Positions 21,219 to 29,983 of a DNA stretch of 38,479 bases are shown here, one piece after another. The stretch comes from Propionivibrio sp. (GTDB taxonomy: Bacteria > Pseudomonadota > Gammaproteobacteria > Burkholderiales > Rhodocyclaceae). The translations under genes were made by a program, and so were the position numbers. The notes below the pieces were generated by a model that worked only from the letters and a program-made list of their open reading frames with translations, was not told the origin of the DNA and made no database searches. Each line of letters starts with the position of its first letter. Position 1 is the first letter of the stretch. Location of the stretch: the NCBI RefSeq assembly GCF_016790145.1, contig NZ_JAEUOI010000219.1:1-38479 (forward strand), written 5' to 3'.

Positions 21219-21497
21219 ATGACTGACATTTCCATTCGCCGCAAACACGGTAAAACGCACTCCGAAGCCCGTGCCGCTGCCGAACACATGGCCTCCGAAC
21301 TCAAGGAAGAGTTTGGCCTCAACTATGCATGGGATGGCGATGTACTGCGCTTCAAGCGTTCGGGCGTTTCCGGCGAGCTAGCGCTGGACGAAGTGGAAGT
21401 CGCCCTGCACATCCGCCTCGGCTTTCTGCTTTCGGCACTCAAACCGAGCATTGAACGCGAGGTGCACAAGTTCTTTGATGAAAATTTTCACGCCTGA
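21219..21497 (+). CDS. polyhydroxyalkanoate granule-system protein (PHA_gran_rgn family)
   Basis: A 92-residue protein resembling the polyhydroxyalkanoic acid system family: ISIRRKHGKTHSEARAAAEHMASELKEEFGLNYAWDGDVLRFKRSGVSGEL, then an amphipathic C-terminal helix ending KPSIEREVHKFFDENF. AGGAG lies 7 bases before the ATG. It is 18 bases after rsgA and may be read from it. Members occur near PHA granule genes; their biochemical role is not well defined. Here it opens a region with phasin, WS/DGAT and reductase genes. Confidence 0.85.
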   Translation: MTDISIRRKHGKTHSEARAAAEHMASELKEEFGLNYAWDGDVLRFKRSGVSGELALDEVEVALHIRLGFLLSALKPSIEREVHKFFDENFHA

Positions 21498-21604
21498 GCT
21501 GTGCGGATTTAATCACTGAAACTGTTGCGTGCGTACTCTGCTGAGTCCTTTGCAAAGCCTGTCGGCATTTCCAGCACCGGTTAGTGGTGTTATGCTCATC
21601 GCTC

Positions 21605-22294
21605 ATGACAAACAAGCCGTCAGCGGGCAGGCCCATGGATATTAAACCGAAGCGAAGAACACGCGAGCGCATCCTTGAAGCCAGCCTGCGGCTGTTCAAC
21701 GATTTTGGCGAACCGAATGTCACGACCACCGTTATTGCCGACGATCTTGATATCAGCCCGGGCAATCTCTATTACCACTTCCACAACAAGGACGAGATTG
21801 TCGAGGCCATATTCGCCGGATTCGAGCGGGAGATCGAAGCAATACTCTCCGTACCGAGCAATCGGCAGGCCGACGTCGATGACATCTGGCTGTTTCTGCA
21901 CCTGCTGTTCGAGCAGATCTGGAAGTTCCGTTTTTTCTACCGCGACCTGAACGATTTGCTGACACGCAACCGCACGCTTGAAATACATTTCAAGCAGATC
22001 CTCGCACACAAGGTGTTGACCGCTACGCTACTCTGCGAAGGACTGGTCGCGGCCGGCGCCATGCGCGCATCGAGCAGCGAGTTGCATGCGTTGAGCACCA
22101 ATATGGCGGTGATCGCCACGTACTGGTTATCCTTCGAGTATGCTCGTGATCCGCGCGGCAAGATGGAGAACGAACGAATCGGGCGGGGTGTTTATCAGGT
22201 CATGGCCATGGTTTCCCCCTTCCTGATCGATAAATCACGATCACTGCTGGAAAAGCTCTCTGTCGAGTACCTGAAGCAACAACCCCTCCGATAA
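21605..22294 (+). CDS. TetR/AcrR-family transcriptional regulator
   Basis: A DNA-binding repressor-type protein of about 229 residues. The helix-turn-helix is visible at the N-terminus: TRERILEASLRLFNDFG, then VTTTVIADDLDISPGNLYYHFHNKDEIV. The remaining helical ligand-binding domain is distinctive to a TetR subgroup (FEQIWKFRFFYRDLNDLL). The start is uncertain: ATGs at 21605 and 21635 both fit and no strong ribosome site separates them. It is 31 bases upstream of the TPR gene. Given the neighbours it could control acyl-CoA or storage-lipid genes, sensing a fatty-acid derivative (inference). Confidence 0.88.
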   Translation: MTNKPSAGRPMDIKPKRRTRERILEASLRLFNDFGEPNVTTTVIADDLDISPGNLYYHFHNKDEIVEAIFAGFEREIEAILSVPSNRQADVDDIWLFLHLLFEQIWKFRFFYRDLNDLLTRNRTLEIHFKQILAHKVLTATLLCEGLVAAGAMRASSSELHALSTNMAVIATYWLSFEYARDPRGKMENERIGRGVYQVMAMVSPFLIDKSRSLLEKLSVEYLKQQPLR

Positions 22295-22326
22295 TCCAAC
22301 CTCTTTGATCATTCAGGAGAAAAGTG

Positions 22327-23100
22327 ATGGCCTGGAAAAAATTTCCCCATACCGACAAGACGTTTTCATATACCGGTGCTGCGCTCCAGAAAAACTGGGC
22401 GCGCCTGCATCGCGGTGATTGCGAACCTTATCCGGACAATGCAAAAGTCCAGGCCGCCTGGCGCAGCTATCATGCCGGCGACTTCGGCAAGGCGGTCGAA
22501 CTCGGGCTCGCCTGCGGCATGGCCGGATACGCGGTTGCCAACAAGGCGGCGACCGTCTATGCCAGCTATCTGGAGACGGATGATGAGCGAAAGCGCACAC
22601 TGCTGCTTGACGCCGCGCAGCGCTGTGAAGAACAGCAGAAGGCGATGCCGGAGTACGTGAATGCCTGGTACCTCCATGCCTATGCCCTGGGTCGGTACAG
22701 CCAGAGCATTTCGGTGGTCAAGGCGCTAACCGAAGGCCTGGGAGGCAAGATCAAGAGCAGCCTGACGCAAGCCATCACGCTGGAACCGAAGCACGCCGAT
22801 GCACATATCGCGCTCGGCGCCTACCATGCCGAAGTAATAGATAAGGTCGGCTCGCTGGTCGGCGGCCTCACCTACGGTGCGAAGAAACACATCGGGGTCG
22901 AGCATTTTGAAACGGCATTGAAACTCAATCCGGACTCGGCCATCGCGAGGATCGAATTTGCCAACGGTCTGGCCATGATGTTCGGCAATGCCCGCATCAA
23001 GGACGCCGAGCGTTATTATCAGGAGGCGGTTGCCTGCATTCCTGCGGACGCCATGGAATGGCTGGATGTCGAGTCTGCCAGATCCGAGTTGGAGGATTGA
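22327..23100 (+). CDS. TPR-repeat protein
   Basis: A 257-residue protein without signal peptide or membrane segment. Tetratricopeptide-like helices are visible: VQAAWRSYHAGDFGKAVELGLACGMAGYAVANKAATVYASYL, the segment around ITLEPKHADAHIALGAYHAEV, and FETALKLNPDSAIARIEFANGL with AERYYQEAVACIP. AGGAG at 22315-22319 lies 7 bases before the ATG at 22327, which I prefer to the adjacent GTG. It follows the TetR gene closely on the same strand, so the two are likely co-transcribed. Function is unknown; TPR proteins generally mediate protein contacts. Confidence 0.82.
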   Translation: MAWKKFPHTDKTFSYTGAALQKNWARLHRGDCEPYPDNAKVQAAWRSYHAGDFGKAVELGLACGMAGYAVANKAATVYASYLETDDERKRTLLLDAAQRCEEQQKAMPEYVNAWYLHAYALGRYSQSISVVKALTEGLGGKIKSSLTQAITLEPKHADAHIALGAYHAEVIDKVGSLVGGLTYGAKKHIGVEHFETALKLNPDSAIARIEFANGLAMMFGNARIKDAERYYQEAVACIPADAMEWLDVESARSELED

Positions 23101-23251
23101 TCGGTTTAAACTGGTTTATCTGGAAGGGTTGTTGCCAGCGCTTTCAACGCAGAGGGCGCAGAGAGAGATTCGGGATTTCCCCCCCGGCGCTCGTTGCCAG
23201 TAACCGGTGCTGAGCGACCGCACCCGAGATGCGCAGCGTCCAATTTTTCAA

Positions 23252-23806
23252 TCAGCGCGAGCGTGCTTTGTCTTTGGGCGGATCGATCAGGTTGACGCAA
23301 CGCTGTAGCGTAGCGGCCTGCTCCTCAGGCGACTTGCCAACCAACTCGCAGTTCTGAGCAACCGTTTGCGGCTTCTTTGCCTTCGGCGGGATGGGGAGCT
23401 CCGGGGGTGCGCCTGTATCCTTGGCACCGGCACCAGGCGACTTCGGCGCGATGGCGGCGTTATCAAGCACAGCCGGAGCGGCACTTTCCGTTTTTTTGAC
23501 TTTTTCGCCAGCGGCATTTGAACGGGCGACCGAATACTCTTTCAACATATGCACCTGCCTGGAGAGCACTTCGATTTGTGCCTTCATATCGTCAAGAGCA
23601 AGGCTCTTTTCCTTGAGCGCGTCCTTTGCCACAAGAACCTCGGCTTGCAAGGCCTTGTTATTTTGATAATAAAGAAACGCACCGGCAACAATCGCCGTCA
23701 GAAGAACGCCCAGCAGCGTCGACAGGATTACGACAATCGTGAGTTTCGGACCATCGACTGGCGCTTTTTCTTCGATAACTTCAGACTCATCGTCATGAAT
23801 GGTCAA
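23252..23806 (-). CDS. membrane-anchored coiled-coil protein of unknown function
   Basis: A 184-residue protein I do not recognise. It has an acidic cytoplasmic N-terminus, one transmembrane segment (LTIVVILSTLLGVLLTAIVAGAFLYY, about residues 22-47), a predicted coiled coil (about 50-92, with LQAEVLVAKDALKEKSLALDD), a Pro/Ala/Lys-rich linker and a C-terminal segment with two cysteines (NCELVGKSPEEQAATLQRCVNLI) that could form a disulfide outside the membrane. The start is TTG (23804-23806), supported by AGAGGA 7 bases upstream. It lies 149 bases downstream of the WS/DGAT gene on the same strand and convergent with the TPR gene. Confidence 0.72.
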   Translation of the reverse strand: MTIHDDESEVIEEKAPVDGPKLTIVVILSTLLGVLLTAIVAGAFLYYQNNKALQAEVLVAKDALKEKSLALDDMKAQIEVLSRQVHMLKEYSVARSNAAGEKVKKTESAAPAVLDNAAIAPKSPGAGAKDTGAPPELPIPPKAKKPQTVAQNCELVGKSPEEQAATLQRCVNLIDPPKDKARSR

Positions 23807-23955
23807 GGCAGTGTCCTCTGATTATCCGTCGGCACAGTGTTTCACCAGCGCTGAAACTCCAAAACACAGCCCAGGCGACAACCTGGCGCCAGGGAATGAC
23901 AAGAGAAATCCGGACAGGCCACATCTAGCAATCGCGACTGTTCAACATTACGACG

Positions 23956-25440
23956 TCATACTTCTTCGAGCAGCACCGCTTCAACGGCCGCCGGATTGCC
24001 AAGTCGCGCCCAAGGCTCCATCAGGACCAGCCAAAGCAGTTTTTCGAATTCAAGCGCAAAACGTTCGACGATACGCTCGGGATCGTCAACCATGTTTTTA
24101 TCGGTAATCAACCCGAACTGTACCTGGCCGTCATAGGAGAGGATACTGACGCCGATACCGATGCTACCCGACTGCGGCACCCAGAACATCTGCTGCCTGA
24201 GTTTGACCCCGGCCATATAGCGCGCCTGCTGCGGCCCTGGGACATTGGTCATCACTGCCGTGGCTTTGCTGGACAGCAGGTCGAGCACCTGTTGCTGCAA
24301 AAACCGGGGCGCCATGCCGACCAGTCCGAGAAGGCTGTAAGTCACCGGCGCCTGATAGGAACCCTTGAGCGCCTGCATCCGCTCACGTGTGGTGTACAAA
24401 CGAGTCAGGGGATTCTCTATGCCAACCGGCAACTCGAGAGCGACCAGTCCGAAATGGTTACCCAGCTTCTCATTGCTGTCAGTCGAGCGCAGATTCACCG
24501 GCACCAGGGCGCGTATCTCGGTGTCCATTGCGCTATCGCCCTGCTCCAGGAGGTAGCCGCGCAATGCTCCCGCCACGGCGGAAAGCAGCATGTCGTTCAC
24601 GGAACAGCCGAGGACGCGGCCAACGGCCTTGACCTGAGGCAGGGGAATCGGTTCCGACCACGCCACGCGCTTGACCGTACCTGGCTTGCCCTTGAAGCGT
24701 GTAGCGCTGTCGTTGGGCATCAACGCCAGCTTTTTGACTTCATTGGCCAGCGAACCGGCGACGCTGGCATAGTCGCGGATTGAACCAGGGTCCTTGCGCA
24801 ACCCCTGGTACTGGCCCCACAGGTTGCCGCCGATACGGATCGACGCAAGCGCCAGGTCGGTAATCGGCTCGGCGATACTGTTCCAGAAGTTATCATCCTC
24901 GTCCGTTTCATCGTCGACGTGAGAACCACGCCTGGTAGACGGCTTCAGCCCACCCTCTTCAGGTGCATCGGCGCTCTCATCGGTCAGTGAATTCAACACA
25001 CCGATGAGAGCAATGCCGTCAGCAATGGCGTGATGAATGCGAATGACCAGGGCCGAGTCACCCTCGGCGGTTTCGACAAGCTGATACTCCCAGCGTGGGC
25101 GCGACGGGTTAAGCGGCTCACTGGCCAGTTCGGCGACGAACTTCTCCAGTTCACGCTTGCCGCAGGGCGAGGGCAGGAGCGACTGCCGAACATGGGTATC
25201 GATGTCGAAATCATCGTCATCTACCCACCAGGCACCCTCTGAATTCTGTTCGGCGATTTGATGGAAGCGTGCGTAGCGCTGCAGGCGCTTGGCGACGGTA
25301 CGCTTCAAGCGCTGGGGATCCAGGCGTCCGGCAAAAATCATCACGCCGATAATCTGCATCAGATTGCTCGGCCGATCCATACGCAACCATGCCGTATCGA
25401 CGCTGGCGATACGTTCACGAACGCGCTCACGGGATGTCAT
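23956..25440 (-). CDS. wax ester synthase/diacylglycerol acyltransferase (WS/DGAT)
   Basis: Transfers the acyl group of acyl-CoA to a fatty alcohol or diacylglycerol, making wax esters or triacylglycerol at the membrane/granule surface. The 494 residues carry the catalytic HHAIADG at 136-142, SVDTAWLRMD (13-22), PLNPSRPRWE (109-118), the ND motif (VNDMLLSAVAGALRGYL near 281) and NVPGP before the C-terminal domain. A GGAG site lies 9 bases before the ATG at 25438-25440. An acidic insert (DDETDEDD near 176) is not essential to the family. The nearby fatty acyl-CoA reductase would supply the alcohol, so wax ester synthesis is the favoured role (inference). Confidence 0.93.
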   Translation of the reverse strand: MTSRERVRERIASVDTAWLRMDRPSNLMQIIGVMIFAGRLDPQRLKRTVAKRLQRYARFHQIAEQNSEGAWWVDDDDFDIDTHVRQSLLPSPCGKRELEKFVAELASEPLNPSRPRWEYQLVETAEGDSALVIRIHHAIADGIALIGVLNSLTDESADAPEEGGLKPSTRRGSHVDDETDEDDNFWNSIAEPITDLALASIRIGGNLWGQYQGLRKDPGSIRDYASVAGSLANEVKKLALMPNDSATRFKGKPGTVKRVAWSEPIPLPQVKAVGRVLGCSVNDMLLSAVAGALRGYLLEQGDSAMDTEIRALVPVNLRSTDSNEKLGNHFGLVALELPVGIENPLTRLYTTRERMQALKGSYQAPVTYSLLGLVGMAPRFLQQQVLDLLSSKATAVMTNVPGPQQARYMAGVKLRQQMFWVPQSGSIGIGVSILSYDGQVQFGLITDKNMVDDPERIVERFALEFEKLLWLVLMEPWARLGNPAAVEAVLLEEV

Positions 25441-25486
25441 CGCAGATACTCCGGATAAGTGACCAGTTCACATGATAGCAAGCCAT

Positions 25487-25742
25487 AGGGGGTGTTGACA
25501 TTCATTTCGTGGATCGCGTTGCCACGAGGGGGCGGTGGATGCTAGGCGCGCGCCTCCGCCCGCACCGGGGTGCGGGCACGGCGAGCAACAACGCAGACGC
25601 CGCCCCCTCGCGGCAACCCTTCGGGACGGCCTCTGTGCGGGCGCTTCGAAACGTTGCGGCGGCTAGCTTGGCACCAGCCGCGCCTTGCGCCACATCCCGC
25701 ACAGAGACCGTCGCGCCCATGAAATGAATGTCAACACCCCCT
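25487..25742. mobile_element. 256-bp element with perfect 22-bp terminal inverted repeats and internal hairpins
   Basis: The ends, 25487-25508 and 25721-25742, are exact reverse complements (AGGGGGTGTTGAC... and its complement). Inside are ordered hairpins: an 18-bp stem 25518-25535/25600-25617 with one mismatch, enclosing a perfect 9-bp stem 25558-25566/25569-25577; and a 17-bp stem 25625-25641/25696-25712 with one mismatch, enclosing a small stem 25659-25664/25676-25681. The whole can fold as a multibranched cruciform. GCCA occurs one base outside each end (25482-25485, 25744-25747), a possible target duplication. No transposase is encoded. It fits a MITE-like non-autonomous element or a structured intergenic repeat; family unknown. 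Confidence 0.7.
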
Positions 25743-25806
25743 CGCCAGCTCAGGCAAAGCATCGCCAATCGAAATCTCAGGACCGCCAGCAAGACTGTGC
25801 CAGAAA

Positions 25807-27024
25807 TCAGGCTTTTTGCAACTCCAGCCAGCATTCGAGATCGTGCAGCGAAGTATCGAGCGCCGTCGCGGTTGATACCAGATCGGGATGACGTTTTTTA
25901 GACAGCAACGAACGGCTGTGATCGCGAAGAACAGAAACGTTCAGATGGAAACCATGGCGCTCGAAAACTGGCGCGAGTTCATGGCGACGCCGGTAAAGAT
26001 CGGTGCGCGTACGCTGATAGGCATGTTCGCACAAGCGGCTACGGCTGCGGTAACTGAAGACATTGGTAAAGAACATTTCCGCATCGTCACGACCTGGCTC
26101 GAACAACACCACATCGGAACCCTCGTATTCATGCCGGTAGCGATCCATACCGGTGCGCATGCGGGAATGGATGATGGCGCGGAATGTTTGCGACAGGACG
26201 ACCGGCAAGCCCCCGTCAACCAGATGCTCGGGTCTGCGCGCATCATGTTCACGGTGCTCATGTCTGGCCGCCAGTTCGGAATCAAAAGGCACCAGCGGGT
26301 TGATGCAAATCACCAGATCGGCACCCTCGCGCAAGGCCACAGAGGCGTGCAGTGTCTTGATCAACGCGCCATCGACATAATAATGTCCGTTGATCTTTAC
26401 TGGAGGAAACAATCCGGGCAAGGCGGCACTGGCCTGAACGGCCAGTGAGATCGGCACATCGTCATGCCCTGCCCCGCCAAAAGCCACCGACTCGCCAGTA
26501 TCAAGATCGGTCGCGACCAGGAAGAGCTTGTGTTTGAGCTGCCGGAAATCGTTACTTCGCCCCGCGCTCGAGAACAGTTTTCTGAGCAGTTGATCAATGC
26601 CGGCATTATCGAATACACCGGCCGGAAGCGCGTGGCTCAGGCGCTGAAACGACTCGAACAGACCGAGATGCCAAGGGTCGGAAAAATAATGCCGCAAAGA
26701 CGACCAGAGCAACGGTGGCACGGAACGCGCACGTCTGTAGTACTCGCCGAAAGCCGGGCGCAACAGGACCTCGGGGTCGAAAACCTCATCCGTATCGTTC
26801 TCAACCAACATTCGGGCCAGCGTATCTGCTCGCAATCCGTTGGCCAGCGCAGCGGCGATTATGCTTCCTGAACTGACGCCGACGAAGAAATCGAACTCGT
26901 TGAAATCGGCCCCCTCTAGCGCTTCGGCCAACGCAGCCATGGCACCGACCTCGTAGATTCCGCCCACAGGCCCACCGCCGGCAAGCGCCAACCCGACCTT
27001 CGAACGCAAGGCTCCAGCGGCCAT
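25807..27024 (-). CDS. patatin-like phospholipase/esterase
   Basis: A serine lipid hydrolase with a Ser-Asp dyad, 405 residues. From the chosen ATG the oxyanion loop is GGGPVGG (16-22), the nucleophile elbow GVSSG places Ser at about 51, and the dyad Asp is in YYVDGALIKT. SAALPGLFPPV between them is typical. There is no signal peptide, so it is probably cytosolic. GGGAG lies 7 bases before the ATG at 27022-27024; a TTG directly upstream is less likely. It sits between the phasin and WS/DGAT genes on the same strand, which suggests action on storage lipid, wax ester or PHA-granule surface lipids (inference). Confidence 0.92.
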   Translation of the reverse strand: MAAGALRSKVGLALAGGGPVGGIYEVGAMAALAEALEGADFNEFDFFVGVSSGSIIAAALANGLRADTLARMLVENDTDEVFDPEVLLRPAFGEYYRRARSVPPLLWSSLRHYFSDPWHLGLFESFQRLSHALPAGVFDNAGIDQLLRKLFSSAGRSNDFRQLKHKLFLVATDLDTGESVAFGGAGHDDVPISLAVQASAALPGLFPPVKINGHYYVDGALIKTLHASVALREGADLVICINPLVPFDSELAARHEHREHDARRPEHLVDGGLPVVLSQTFRAIIHSRMRTGMDRYRHEYEGSDVVLFEPGRDDAEMFFTNVFSYRSRSRLCEHAYQRTRTDLYRRRHELAPVFERHGFHLNVSVLRDHSRSLLSKKRHPDLVSTATALDTSLHDLECWLELQKA

Positions 27025-27084
27025 CAAGTATCTCCCGAAAAAACAGCCGGTACGTCTCTCACTGCCCCAAGACAGAAGCTCCCC

Positions 27085-27117
27085 GTCAGAGTGTGTTGTA
27101 GAAACTCACACTCTGAC
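27085..27117 (-). terminator. 11-bp perfect hairpin after the phasin gene
   Basis: GTCAGAGTGTG (27085-27095) pairs exactly with 27107-27117 around an 11-base loop. It lies 32 bases past the phasin stop and before the patatin start. There is no U-tract, so it may stabilise the abundant phasin mRNA end or partly terminate it rather than act as a classical terminator. Confidence 0.5.
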
Positions 27118-27148
27118 AGGCGGCCCTCCCGCCCGGACCCCTACCAGC

Positions 27149-27715
27149 TTAGTGGTTGGTATGCGAGATATTCTTCAGCACATCAGCCGGGGTGACTGGC
27201 GGTATAGCCTTCGCAGCGGCCGGCTTGGCCGCAGGCTTCCTGGCGACTGGTTTGGCAACGGCCCGGGCTGCCGGCTTGGCGACGGCCTTGACTGCCGGTT
27301 TTGCAGCAGGTTTCGCAGCGGGCTTGGCTGCAGCCTTCTGTTCGGTCAGGCCCTGTACGACGGCGGTGAGTTCAACGACACGCCTGGAAAGCTTTTCGAT
27401 ATCCTTCTTGCTCGGTACACCCAGGCTGCCGAGAGCACGTGCAACACGGTCTTCGAACACCTGCTCCAAGCGATCCCAAGTACCGGCTGCCTTACCGGCA
27501 ACGACGGCGATCTTTTCATCGGTCATTTTGCGCGTCCGCGCCTGAATGCTTTCACCTTCCTTGACCAGCGCATCAAAGACCTTGCCGCCCTCTTCCTGGG
27601 CCTTGGCAAATGCACCGAGCCCGGCCAGCCAGATCTGCTGTGCGGAATCCTTGACGGTGAGTGCAAGTTGGTTTTCGGTCAAACTACCGGCCAGTGCTTT
27701 CAGTTTCTTTCCCAT
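27149..27715 (-). CDS. phasin with AlgP/histone-H1-like tail (PhaF/PhaI type)
   Basis: A granule-associated protein of 188 residues. Residues 10-120 match the poly granule-associated family: LTVKDSAQQIWLAGLGAFAKAQEEGGKVFDALVKEGESIQ, TWDRLEQVFEDRVARALGSLGVPSKKDIEKLSRRVVELT. The tail (about 128-175) is built of KPAA-type repeats like AlgP and PhaF, able to bind DNA non-specifically. The ATG at 27713-27715 was chosen because AAGGAG (27722-27727 on the opposite strand) lies 6 bases upstream. A hairpin precedes the ribosome site. It may coat PHA or wax-ester granules and tether them to the nucleoid (inference). Confidence 0.92.
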   Translation of the reverse strand: MGKKLKALAGSLTENQLALTVKDSAQQIWLAGLGAFAKAQEEGGKVFDALVKEGESIQARTRKMTDEKIAVVAGKAAGTWDRLEQVFEDRVARALGSLGVPSKKDIEKLSRRVVELTAVVQGLTEQKAAAKPAAKPAAKPAVKAVAKPAARAVAKPVARKPAAKPAAAKAIPPVTPADVLKNISHTNH

Positions 27716-27733
27716 TTCAAACTCCTTTATCAT

Positions 27734-27755
27734 GAAAGTTGTTCTAGCAACTTTC
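27734..27755 (-). promoter_or_regulatory. hairpin in the phasin mRNA leader, next to the ribosome site
   Basis: GAAAGTTG (27734-27741) is perfectly complementary to CAACTTTC (27748-27755) with the loop TTCTAG. It ends 6 bases upstream of the AAGGAG ribosome site. It could be an mRNA 5' stabiliser or a dyad operator. Confidence 0.5.
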
Positions 27756-27991
27756 GAATCTCCCTTCGCTCTCTGAAGAGGGGTCGGGGGTGAGAGTAAC
27801 GGGCACAGTCTTCATTACCTTGATTGATTGACAAAGTCATGTCCGTTCGCTTTACTACTTGTAAGGTCGGCAAGCGTTTTCTCTTGCTCCTTGATGCCAT
27901 TGTAGAGACAATAAATAGAGGGGGCATACTAATAGCCTAGGCATTACCCTCTAAAATCGATTCCAGGCTCGCATCCAACCAGGAGAAGTGT
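27756..27991. other. divergent intergenic region between phasin and fatty acyl-CoA reductase genes
   Basis: About 236 bases that must carry the promoters for both genes. A G-rich run at 27775-27795 resembles half of a common proteobacterial intergenic repeat but its partner is missing. The AT-rich stretch around 27900-27945 probably holds the reductase promoter; no convincing -35/-10 pair could be fixed. No gene seen. Confidence 0.4.
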
Positions 27992-29983
27992 ATGAACTAT
28001 TTTGTAACCGGCGCCACCGGTTTTATCGGCAAACGACTTGTTGCCAAACTTCTTGCACGTCCCGATAGCGTTGTTTATTTTCTCGTGCGCACCATTGAGC
28101 TGCAACGCATCGATGAATTCAGGGATTACTGGGGCGTCGATGCGACACGCGCGATCCCGATCGTCGGCGATCTCACGCAGCCGAATCTTGGGGTAGTGCA
28201 AACCGAAATTCGCAAACTGAAAGGCAAGATCACTCACTTCTTCCACCTCGCAGCGATTTACGACCTCAAGGCCAGTGCGGAGGATCAGCAGCGTGCCAAT
28301 GTGGATGGAACGCGCAACACCGTCGGCCTGGCTGAAACCATGGCCGTCAAGCATTTTCACCTGGTCAGTTCGATTGCCTCGGCAGGCCTGTTTGAAGGCC
28401 TCTTTCGCGAAGACATGTTCGAAGAAGCCGAGAACCTGGAAAACCCCTACTTCCGCACCAAGCACGATTCCGAAGGCATCGTGCGCACGGAGTGCCACGT
28501 GCCATGGCGCATCTTCCGCCCGGCCATTGTCGTCGGCGACTCGCGCACCGGCGAGATGGACAAGATCGACGGGCCATACTACTTCTTCAAACTGATCCAG
28601 AAAATGCGCAAGCTCCTGCCGAGCTGGATGCCGACGATCGGCATTGAAGGCGGGCGCATCAATGTCGTTCCGGTCGATTTCGTTGTTGCGGCGATGGATC
28701 ACATCGCCCACCTGAAAAATGAAGACGGCAAGTGCTTCCATCTGACCGACCCGAGTCCGATGCGTGTCGGCGACCTGCTCAACAGTTTTGCCCGTGCGGC
28801 GCACGCGCCGCAAATGACCATGCGAATCAATGCCGCGATTTTTGGCTTCATTCCCAAGCACATCCGCAAGGCGCTGTTCGCACTGACGCCGATTCGCCGC
28901 ATTCGCAATGCGGTGATGAAGGATCTCGGTCTCCCCGACAGCATTTTCGAGTTCATCAATTACCCGACCCGTTTCGATTGCCGCGAAACACTGCGCGTAC
29001 TCAAGGGCACTGACATTGCCGTGCCGCCGCTTGACACGTATGCTTGGCGTCTTTGGGACTACTGGGAACGCCATCTTGACCCGGACCTGTTCATTGATTA
29101 CAGCCTGCGCGGTCAGGTCGAAGGCAAGGTTGTGCTGGTAACCGGCGGCTCCTCGGGTATCGGGAAAGCAACCATCCGCAAGATTGCCGAGGCCGGCGCC
29201 ATCGCTGTCACCATTGCGCGCGATGCCCAGCAGCTTGACGAGACACGCGCCGAATTCGAGGCGGCCGGTCTGAAGCTGATCACACACGTCGTCGACATTG
29301 CCTCGAAGGAACAATGCGATGCCTTCGTCAAGATCATGGACGAGCAGCTCGGCGGCGTCGATATTCTGGTCAATAATGCCGGACGTTCGATACGTCGCGG
29401 CATAGAGAATTCGTTCGATCGTTTCCACGACTATGAACGAACCATGGAAGTCAATTATTTTGGCGCGCTACGCCTGACCATGGGCTTGCTGCCGGGGATG
29501 ATCAAGAAGAAAAAGGGAATGGTGGTCAACATTTCATCGATCGGGGTGTTGACCAATGCCCCGCGCTTCTCGGCTTATGTTGCTTCAAAAGCCGCCATGG
29601 ATGCCTGGACGCGTTGTGCAGCGTCGGAGTTTGCTGACCGACACATCGACTTTACGACGATCAACATGCCACTTGTCAAGACCCCGATGATCTCGCCGAC
29701 CAAACTCTATGAGCAGGTGCCCACACTCACACCCGAAGAAGCCGCCATGATGGTGGTCAACGCCATCATCCACAAACCGGTGCGCATTGCCACACGGCTG
29801 GGAATCTTTGGTGCCCTGCTGCATTCTCTGATGCCGAAAGTGGCACAAATCGTCATGAATACAAGCTTCCGCATGTTCCCCGATTCGATCGCCGCTGGTC
29901 AGAGCAAGAAGCCCGCTGCGCTGCAAACACCATCGGCTGATCAGATCGCCTTCACCCAGATCATGCGCGGCATGCATTTCTGA
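27992..29983 (+). CDS. two-domain fatty acyl-CoA reductase (alcohol-forming type)
   Basis: A 663-residue fusion of two Rossmann-fold reductases. The N-terminal extended SDR/male-sterility-type domain has TGATGFIG (6-13), VSSIAS (125-130) and the Y153-X3-K157 pair. The C-terminal classical SDR has TGGSSGIG (384-391), NNAG (461-464), NISSIG and Y529-X3-K533. Both active sites look intact. This size and order match the bacterial alcohol-forming acyl-CoA reductases known from Marinobacter and the mycobacterial Acr-type proteins, which reduce acyl-CoA through aldehyde to alcohol with NADPH. GGAG lies 8 bases before the ATG. With the nearby WS/DGAT it would complete wax-ester synthesis; the substrate is inferred. 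Confidence 0.9.
   Translation: MNYFVTGATGFIGKRLVAKLLARPDSVVYFLVRTIELQRIDEFRDYWGVDATRAIPIVGDLTQPNLGVVQTEIRKLKGKITHFFHLAAIYDLKASAEDQQRANVDGTRNTVGLAETMAVKHFHLVSSIASAGLFEGLFREDMFEEAENLENPYFRTKHDSEGIVRTECHVPWRIFRPAIVVGDSRTGEMDKIDGPYYFFKLIQKMRKLLPSWMPTIGIEGGRINVVPVDFVVAAMDHIAHLKNEDGKCFHLTDPSPMRVGDLLNSFARAAHAPQMTMRINAAIFGFIPKHIRKALFALTPIRRIRNAVMKDLGLPDSIFEFINYPTRFDCRETLRVLKGTDIAVPPLDTYAWRLWDYWERHLDPDLFIDYSLRGQVEGKVVLVTGGSSGIGKATIRKIAEAGAIAVTIARDAQQLDETRAEFEAAGLKLITHVVDIASKEQCDAFVKIMDEQLGGVDILVNNAGRSIRRGIENSFDRFHDYERTMEVNYFGALRLTMGLLPGMIKKKKGMVVNISSIGVLTNAPRFSAYVASKAAMDAWTRCAASEFADRHIDFTTINMPLVKTPMISPTKLYEQVPTLTPEEAAMMVVNAIIHKPVRIATRLGIFGALLHSLMPKVAQIVMNTSFRMFPDSIAAGQSKKPAALQTPSADQIAFTQIMRGMHF

Follow-up and report, generated by a model that had tools for sequence, protein, structure and literature searches.

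The wax-ester pathway of Marinobacter combines a fatty acyl-CoA reductase (FACoAR, Maqu_2507) with a wax-ester synthase/O-acyltransferase (WS/DGAT), and to our knowledge its genes are not packed together with genes for a phasin, a patatin, a TetR regulator or a tetratricopeptide repeat (TPR) protein. The same two enzyme types, the reductase (FAR) being assigned by family, are encoded 2.55 kb apart in a contig of Propionivibrio sp. (NZ_JAEUOI010000219.1; the whole stretch analysed, 38,479 nucleotides, is referred to here as the window), together with genes of all four of these kinds. PhaF/PhaI phasins (PF05597, TIGR01837) share with the window phasin their domain and a basic Ala/Lys/Pro-rich tail, which in PhaF is histone-like, but the window phasin sits with wax-ester genes and no polyhydroxyalkanoate (PHA) synthase was found among the 20 window proteins scanned. 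The best reading of this locus, and a probable one, is that it is a wax-ester storage module. The portions of PMC10351704 (PLoS One 2023) concerned with Burkholderiales scaffolds describe WS/DGAT with a short-chain dehydrogenase/reductase (SDR) ~59 % identical to Maqu_2507; two of the scaffolds also carry a PHA system protein, and a further scaffold carries a phasin, so that, going by these portions, the core association of WS/DGAT, SDR and PHA genes is already in print. In the main text of that paper, TetR, patatin and the string Rhodocycl are unmentioned. The portion of PMC5504291 on MLDS of Rhodococcus jostii describes a lipid-droplet coat protein whose Lys-rich C-terminus binds DNA; the window phasin, with a Lys-rich tail on a coat protein, is similar in layout, a likeness that does not imply homology.

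Gene order was compared in the named FAR loci, which are the best 80 of at least 579 relatives, were found by FAR and underlie all counts out of 80. Partner genes were sought by tblastn in the fetched flanks, several of which end early at contig ends. A linked phasin was found in 76 of the 80 loci, TetR in 69, the TPR protein in 61, patatin in 53 and WS/DGAT in 39, and the phasin gene adjoins FAR, divergently oriented, in 75. With only six genes considered (WSD, TPR, TetR, PAT, PHASIN and FAR), the order TPR< TetR< PAT< PHASIN< FAR> was intact in 40/80 and the longer order WSD> TPR< TetR< PAT< PHASIN< FAR> in 31/80, while the patatin-less order TPR< TetR< PHASIN< FAR> accounted for 20/80. Clustering of all neighbouring open reading frames (ORFs) was dropped, since shadow ORFs in GC-rich DNA spoiled the result. 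A PHA_gran_rgn gene lay near FAR in 34 loci, 33 of which had a linked WS/DGAT. Of the 41 FAR loci without a linked WS/DGAT, 39 come from genomes that encode one at another place (43 genomes were checked, including L073 and L096 with linked copies; 41 matched, 40 of them over the cut-off).

Presence and absence followed the same pattern. In a phylogenetic profile of 59 genomes, the window's own included, FAR was present in 13. A close WS/DGAT (at least 460 bits) was found in 12 genomes, all with FAR; the thirteenth FAR genome, G037, had distant matches only, and G029, which lacks FAR, has two distant matches. A stop codon that seemed to interrupt the WS/DGAT of G018 is the terminal codon of that gene. 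The TPR protein was present in 11 genomes and patatin in 12, again all with FAR, the former being missing from the FAR genomes G033 and G037 and the latter from G055. At the thresholds applied, the 46 genomes lacking FAR all lacked TPR, patatin and a close WS/DGAT as well. In an evenly drawn class sample of 232 genomes, FAR was found in nine, WS/DGAT (threshold E 1e-30) in 14 and both in seven (Fisher P=1.8e-8, or 2.3e-7 without the own genome), P values that ignore shared ancestry. This limit weighs against the wax-ester reading, as do the FAR genomes in which no WS/DGAT was found, namely L043 and L080 among the 80 named FAR genomes and G067 and G245 among the nine of the class sample, the seven of 232 class genomes that have WS/DGAT without FAR, and the 23 of 28 genomes of the window's own genus, some of them incomplete, that are without FAR. 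In the family sample (249 genomes, 68 genera), FAR occurred in 38 genomes from 17 genera. The conserved order and the shared phylogenetic profile, which the original prediction had set beforehand as its test, support the conclusion that reductase, WS/DGAT, phasin and patatin form a linked unit that is co-inherited beyond chance.

All genes that had been named at 21219-29983 from the letters alone are present as open frames, and the pairing of an intact WS/DGAT with a two-SDR fusion reductase within 3 kb, as well as the identity of each neighbour, was confirmed. The features are as follows.

21219-21497, + strand: PHA_gran_rgn protein, 92 aa (PF09650, 95.8 bits against a cut-off of 26.6)
21632-22294, + strand: TetR-type repressor (PF13972, 149.8 bits; PF00440, 40.6 bits against 24)
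22327-23100, + strand: TPR protein with a PTPIP51/RMDN3-like fold (in Pfam, the window copy has single sub-threshold TPR matches only)
23252-23806, - strand: small membrane coiled-coil protein (no family above cut-off; 'membrane' and 'coiled coil' judged by eye)
23956-25440, - strand: WS/DGAT wax-ester synthase/O-acyltransferase (TIGR02946, HHAIADG)
25487-25742, no strand: element of 256 bp resembling a miniature inverted-repeat transposable element (MITE), with 26-bp terminal inverted repeats (96 %)
25807-27027, - strand: patatin-like hydrolase (PF01734; GVSSG and DGA dyad)
27149-27733, - strand: PhaF/PhaI-type phasin with a basic Ala-Lys-Pro tail (PF05597, TIGR01837)
27915-27932, no strand: dyad O1, core TAGNG-N6-CNCTA, candidate TetR operator, conserved in FAR upstream regions
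27936-27953, no strand: dyad O2, TAGG-N7-CTCTA, weaker, beside O1, seen in the upstream alignment
27992-29983, + strand: two-domain acyl-CoA reductase (FAR), 663 aa (NF005539/PRK07201)

Downstream (3') of FAR lie ProQ and then FixH and FixG. The WS/DGAT matched its family over its full length (TIGR02946, 380.3 bits against 309.95, residues 12-469) and keeps the active-site motif HHxxxDG as HHAIADG at residue 136. FAR matched NF005539 along its whole chain (993 bits against a cut-off of 549, residues 1-663) and joins PF07993 (NAD_binding_4, residues 5-235) and PF00106 (adh_short, residues 379-568) in one polypeptide. The motifs GATGFIG and YFRTK in the first half and NNAG and YVASK in the second, which we take to be the SDR sites, are intact. 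The phasin domain was recognised by PF05597 (131 bits against 28.8) and TIGR01837 (99.1 against 94.7), and its tail carries a net charge of +11 over the last 60 residues, a charge that is at least +8 in 51 of the 76 orthologs. The C-terminus of the phasin ends in a V-T-P-A-D/E-V-L motif in the listed Propionivibrio and Accumulibacter orthologs and not in most others; this motif is perhaps a docking peptide. Two of these observations tell against the storage reading: NF005539 carries only the title 'SDR family oxidoreductase', and the tail is short or absent in several phasin orthologs (L046, L094 and L101).

Family assignments suggest how a wax-ester storage module would operate. FAR would reduce fatty acyl-CoA to fatty alcohol, and WS/DGAT, to judge from its family and intact HHxxxDG motif, would esterify the alcohol with a second acyl-CoA, giving a wax ester. 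The phasin would coat the resulting neutral-lipid inclusion, which its basic Ala-Lys-Pro tail may tie to the nucleoid. For the patatin, the most likely role is hydrolysis of the ester or of surface phospholipids as the store is drawn on, and the TPR protein, on weaker grounds, most likely docks at the inclusion or moves lipid to it. TetR would repress the divergent phasin/FAR promoter through O1; its inducer is probably an acyl-CoA or fatty acid, so that phasin and FAR would be off when acyl-CoA is scarce.

The predicted regulation rests on the promoter dyad O1, which is a new finding. Alignment of the regions upstream of FAR revealed one strongly conserved block, a dyad with the core TAGnG-N6-CnCTA. 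With up to two mismatches allowed, 42 of the 80 loci have O1 in the 300 bp preceding FAR, compared with none of 3724 random 300-bp control segments from the same 80 loci, and a looser palindrome was found in 53 of 80 loci compared with 18 of the 3724 controls. TAG, CTA and the central CA were invariant in the 42 sites, a pattern towards which the search itself is biased. O1 was the sole site at one mismatch in the host genome (4.05 Mb in 239 contigs). Among the 12 other FAR genomes of the 59-genome profile, ten had O1 at two mismatches, in G055 ahead of a second phasin gene. G033 and G054 lack it, and the TetR search, which covered the fetched stretches, had no match in either. In G018 and G036, in which FAR is on another contig, O1 stays with the phasin. 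Sixteen loci fetched from FAR-lacking congeners (the empty sites described below) had no O1 at two mismatches, including three that keep the phasin. The regulator carries a TetR_N domain and its presumed target promoter a conserved dyad, as expected of a TetR repressor with a linked operator. O1 is likely to be the operator of the linked TetR because it is missing where TetR is missing.

Some results count against this assignment. O1 was lacking at two mismatches in 38 of the 80 named loci; a reversed control pattern had two matches at one mismatch in the own genome, compared with one for O1; the window held two sites at three mismatches, with 2.75 expected and thus no excess; and matches at three mismatches occurred in six of the 16 empty sites, one of them (L121) intergenic. 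A scan for sigma-70 and terminator signals around O1 gave no match. Within the window no O1-type site precedes WS/DGAT, nor was one found near the unlinked WS/DGAT genes of G034 and G036. Related dyads were seen at other places. In G055 (L028:3603) an O1-like dyad at two mismatches precedes a second phasin gene 11 kb from FAR, and in the related loci L055 (16600) and L057 (16554) one at three mismatches precedes an ORF 6.6 kb past the FAR start, possibly an extra member of the regulon. Many Comamonadaceae have an altered dyad of the type TTTAGG...CCTAAA, as judged by eye, at the same spot as O1.

That O1 is instead a core promoter or activator site, and not the operator of the linked TetR, appears rather unlikely. 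Its position is where a promoter would be expected, TetR binding is a prediction, and no sigma-70-like match separates the two readings. However, the core TAGnG-N6-CnCTA is a dyad, and the site is missing along with TetR even where the phasin is kept. The median identity of TetR to the window TetR is 66 % in loci with O1 (38 loci) and 47 % in loci without it (31 loci), ancestry being ignored, and the changed dyad of the Comamonadaceae occupies the same position. These points favour an operator bound by the linked TetR.

The TPR protein had been proposed as a candidate granule factor, and it has proved a good one as a granule or droplet factor, given its co-occurrence with FAR and its PTPIP51-like fold. 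Its 26 aligned orthologs are 46-84 % identical to the window copy, with many invariant residues. An AlphaFold2 model (predicted local distance difference test score, pLDDT, 95.6; predicted template modelling score, pTM, 0.92) had as its best Foldseek match the TPR domain of PTPIP51/RMDN3 (7cc7; E 1.3e-6, template modelling (TM) scores 0.63/0.71, 18 % identity). The next two chains belong to a bacterial sterol transporter (7t1s; TM 0.62-0.65/0.68-0.71), followed by general TPR proteins. Pfam RMD1-3 was matched at E 0.05 by ten of 27 aligned TPR members, and the L064 ortholog exceeded its curated cut-off (29.0 against 26.7 bits, residues 85-243). The window copy has no Pfam RMD1-3 match and was not assigned to the RMDN family by sequence; it resembles 7cc7 in fold. 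When the PDB was searched with a sequence profile, 7cc7 (E 0.0096) came behind OGT and engineered TPR chains. According to the relevant part of PMC9239997, the TPR domain of PTPIP51 binds phospholipids in a cavity and transfers phosphatidic acid in vitro. A lipid-carrying role of the bacterial protein, as suggested by the model, is a lead and not a result.

To compare the locus within the genus, rsgA was used as a marker and was found in 24 of 28 members; the locus was fetched from 16 of the 19 rsgA-positive members that lack FAR, five of these stretches being shorter than 9 kb and ended by the contig. None of the 16 fetched sites contained TetR, TPR, WS/DGAT, patatin or FAR. The genes remaining were the coiled-coil gene (nine sites), ProQ (ten), the phasin (three) and PHA_gran_rgn (three). 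In Accumulibacter loci (e.g. L032, L035 and L037) the unit occupies the corresponding position, with rsgA and ProQ on either side, so its presence is likely to be ancestral, with loss having occurred in the genus. Since the phasin or the coiled-coil gene stays behind between unit members, loss would have taken at least two deletions, a point in favour of a joint function. The persistence of the coiled-coil gene in nine of 16 congeners without the unit led us to drop its product as a granule factor. A tblastn search of the 80 named FAR loci gave no match to it that reached 50 bits. The protein, put forward in the original prediction as a candidate granule factor, is probably a resident of the locus and not a unit member. 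The suggestion that the phasin is shared between PHA and neutral-lipid inclusions fared better and is plausible, because the phasin is still in place in three relatives that otherwise lack the unit.

The genus also differs in gene order. In its five members with FAR, the block WSD-TPR-TetR runs in the opposite orientation to that of Accumulibacter and the majority of the other loci. The inversion would place WS/DGAT co-directionally behind phasin and patatin and take TetR and TPR out of the phasin operon, and phasin, patatin and WS/DGAT perhaps form one operon in this genus. The gap between patatin and WS/DGAT is 366 bp in the window and ~106 bp in the relative L015, as measured from tblastn ends; the 256-bp MITE-like element of the window sits in this gap and also holds nested inverted repeats.

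Two other functions for the locus were weighed. One is that triacylglycerol or another O-acyl ester is the main product of WS/DGAT, the aldehydes or alcohols from the reductase serving something else. The WS/DGAT family is bifunctional and also makes triacylglycerol, and the sequence leaves the main product unfixed, which speaks against a firm assignment to wax esters. This alternative also draws on the seven class genomes with WS/DGAT but no FAR and on the location of WS/DGAT outside the fetched FAR flank in G034, G036 and 39 of the 80 named FAR genomes. The converse case, FAR without WS/DGAT, is however rare (2/80 and 2/9), which fits an alcohol made for esterification, and the 20 window proteins scanned included none recognisable as belonging to the Kennedy pathway. 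Triacylglycerol as the main product therefore seems improbable.

The other is that this is an ordinary PHA-granule locus, in which phasin and PHA_gran_rgn serve polyhydroxybutyrate (PHB) and the lipid enzymes only remodel membrane or granule lipids. The host genome has four PhaC_N matches, from which it is likely that it also synthesises PHA, and phasin and PHA_gran_rgn are each kept in three of 16 relatives without the rest. All four PhaC_N matches, however, are on contigs other than that of the window, among whose 20 scanned proteins no PhaC, PhaA or PhaB was recognised. TPR, patatin, WS/DGAT and FAR are gained and lost together, and the O1 dyad is absent from the three loci that keep the phasin alone. 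A purely PHA-related function is very unlikely on this evidence, and a wax-ester storage module is the reading retained.

The closest FARs among the 80 were from an uncultured Rhodocyclaceae metagenome-assembled genome (MAG; 90 % identity) and a Propionivibrio MAG (89 %), followed by Accumulibacter and other MAGs. Eleven loci titled Accumulibacter had FAR identities of 79-84 %; all 11 contained FAR and phasin and nine a linked WS/DGAT, while L033 and L038, which are cut by contig ends, have WS/DGAT elsewhere in the genome. As these loci were found by FAR, the counts give no estimate of prevalence. Beyond this group, the Competibacteraceae MAG L101 carries a differently ordered set of TetR, patatin, phasin, WS/DGAT and FAR with no TPR match, and in the Contendobacter MAG L096 only WS/DGAT and FAR were seen; in both, WS/DGAT lies within 10 kb of FAR. 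A MAG titled Acidobacteria (L080) has a FAR with 65 % identity but no other unit gene in its flanks and no WS/DGAT, and this FAR may be a binning error.

Searches of an open-access library turned up no report of a wax-ester store in Accumulibacter or Propionivibrio, and none of an O1-type operator. In the parts consulted, PMC9003127 mentions wax esters only in a reference about Gordonia, and PMC12358690 (Azotobacter) and PMC11948995 (haloarchaea) have nothing on such a cluster. New here are the O1 dyad, the PTPIP51-like TPR protein, the exclusion of the coiled-coil protein, the inversion in the genus and the presence of the unit in Accumulibacter MAGs.

By its sequence the unit is real, conserved and functional-looking, and appears to unite a bacterial wax-ester pathway with PHA-type coat proteins, a regulator of its own and a lipid-transfer-like TPR protein. 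A more extended proposal is that the TPR protein acts as the bacterial equivalent of the PTPIP51 lipid-transfer domain at contacts between the membrane and wax-ester droplets, in a TetR-controlled droplet-building unit that gives Accumulibacter-type and some Competibacter-type organisms a store beside PHA, glycogen and polyphosphate, one so far unrecognised in phosphorus-removal communities; as a whole this is tentative, and we regard it as possible but doubtful. Accumulibacter and its relatives are textbook storers of PHA, glycogen and polyphosphate. If the wax-ester reading is true, such a branch would alter the carbon and redox balances in Accumulibacter models, wax esters being more reduced than PHA. 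The unit also offers testable parts for two questions: the assembly and coating of lipid droplets in bacteria, and the sharing of coat proteins between PHA and wax within a single cell.

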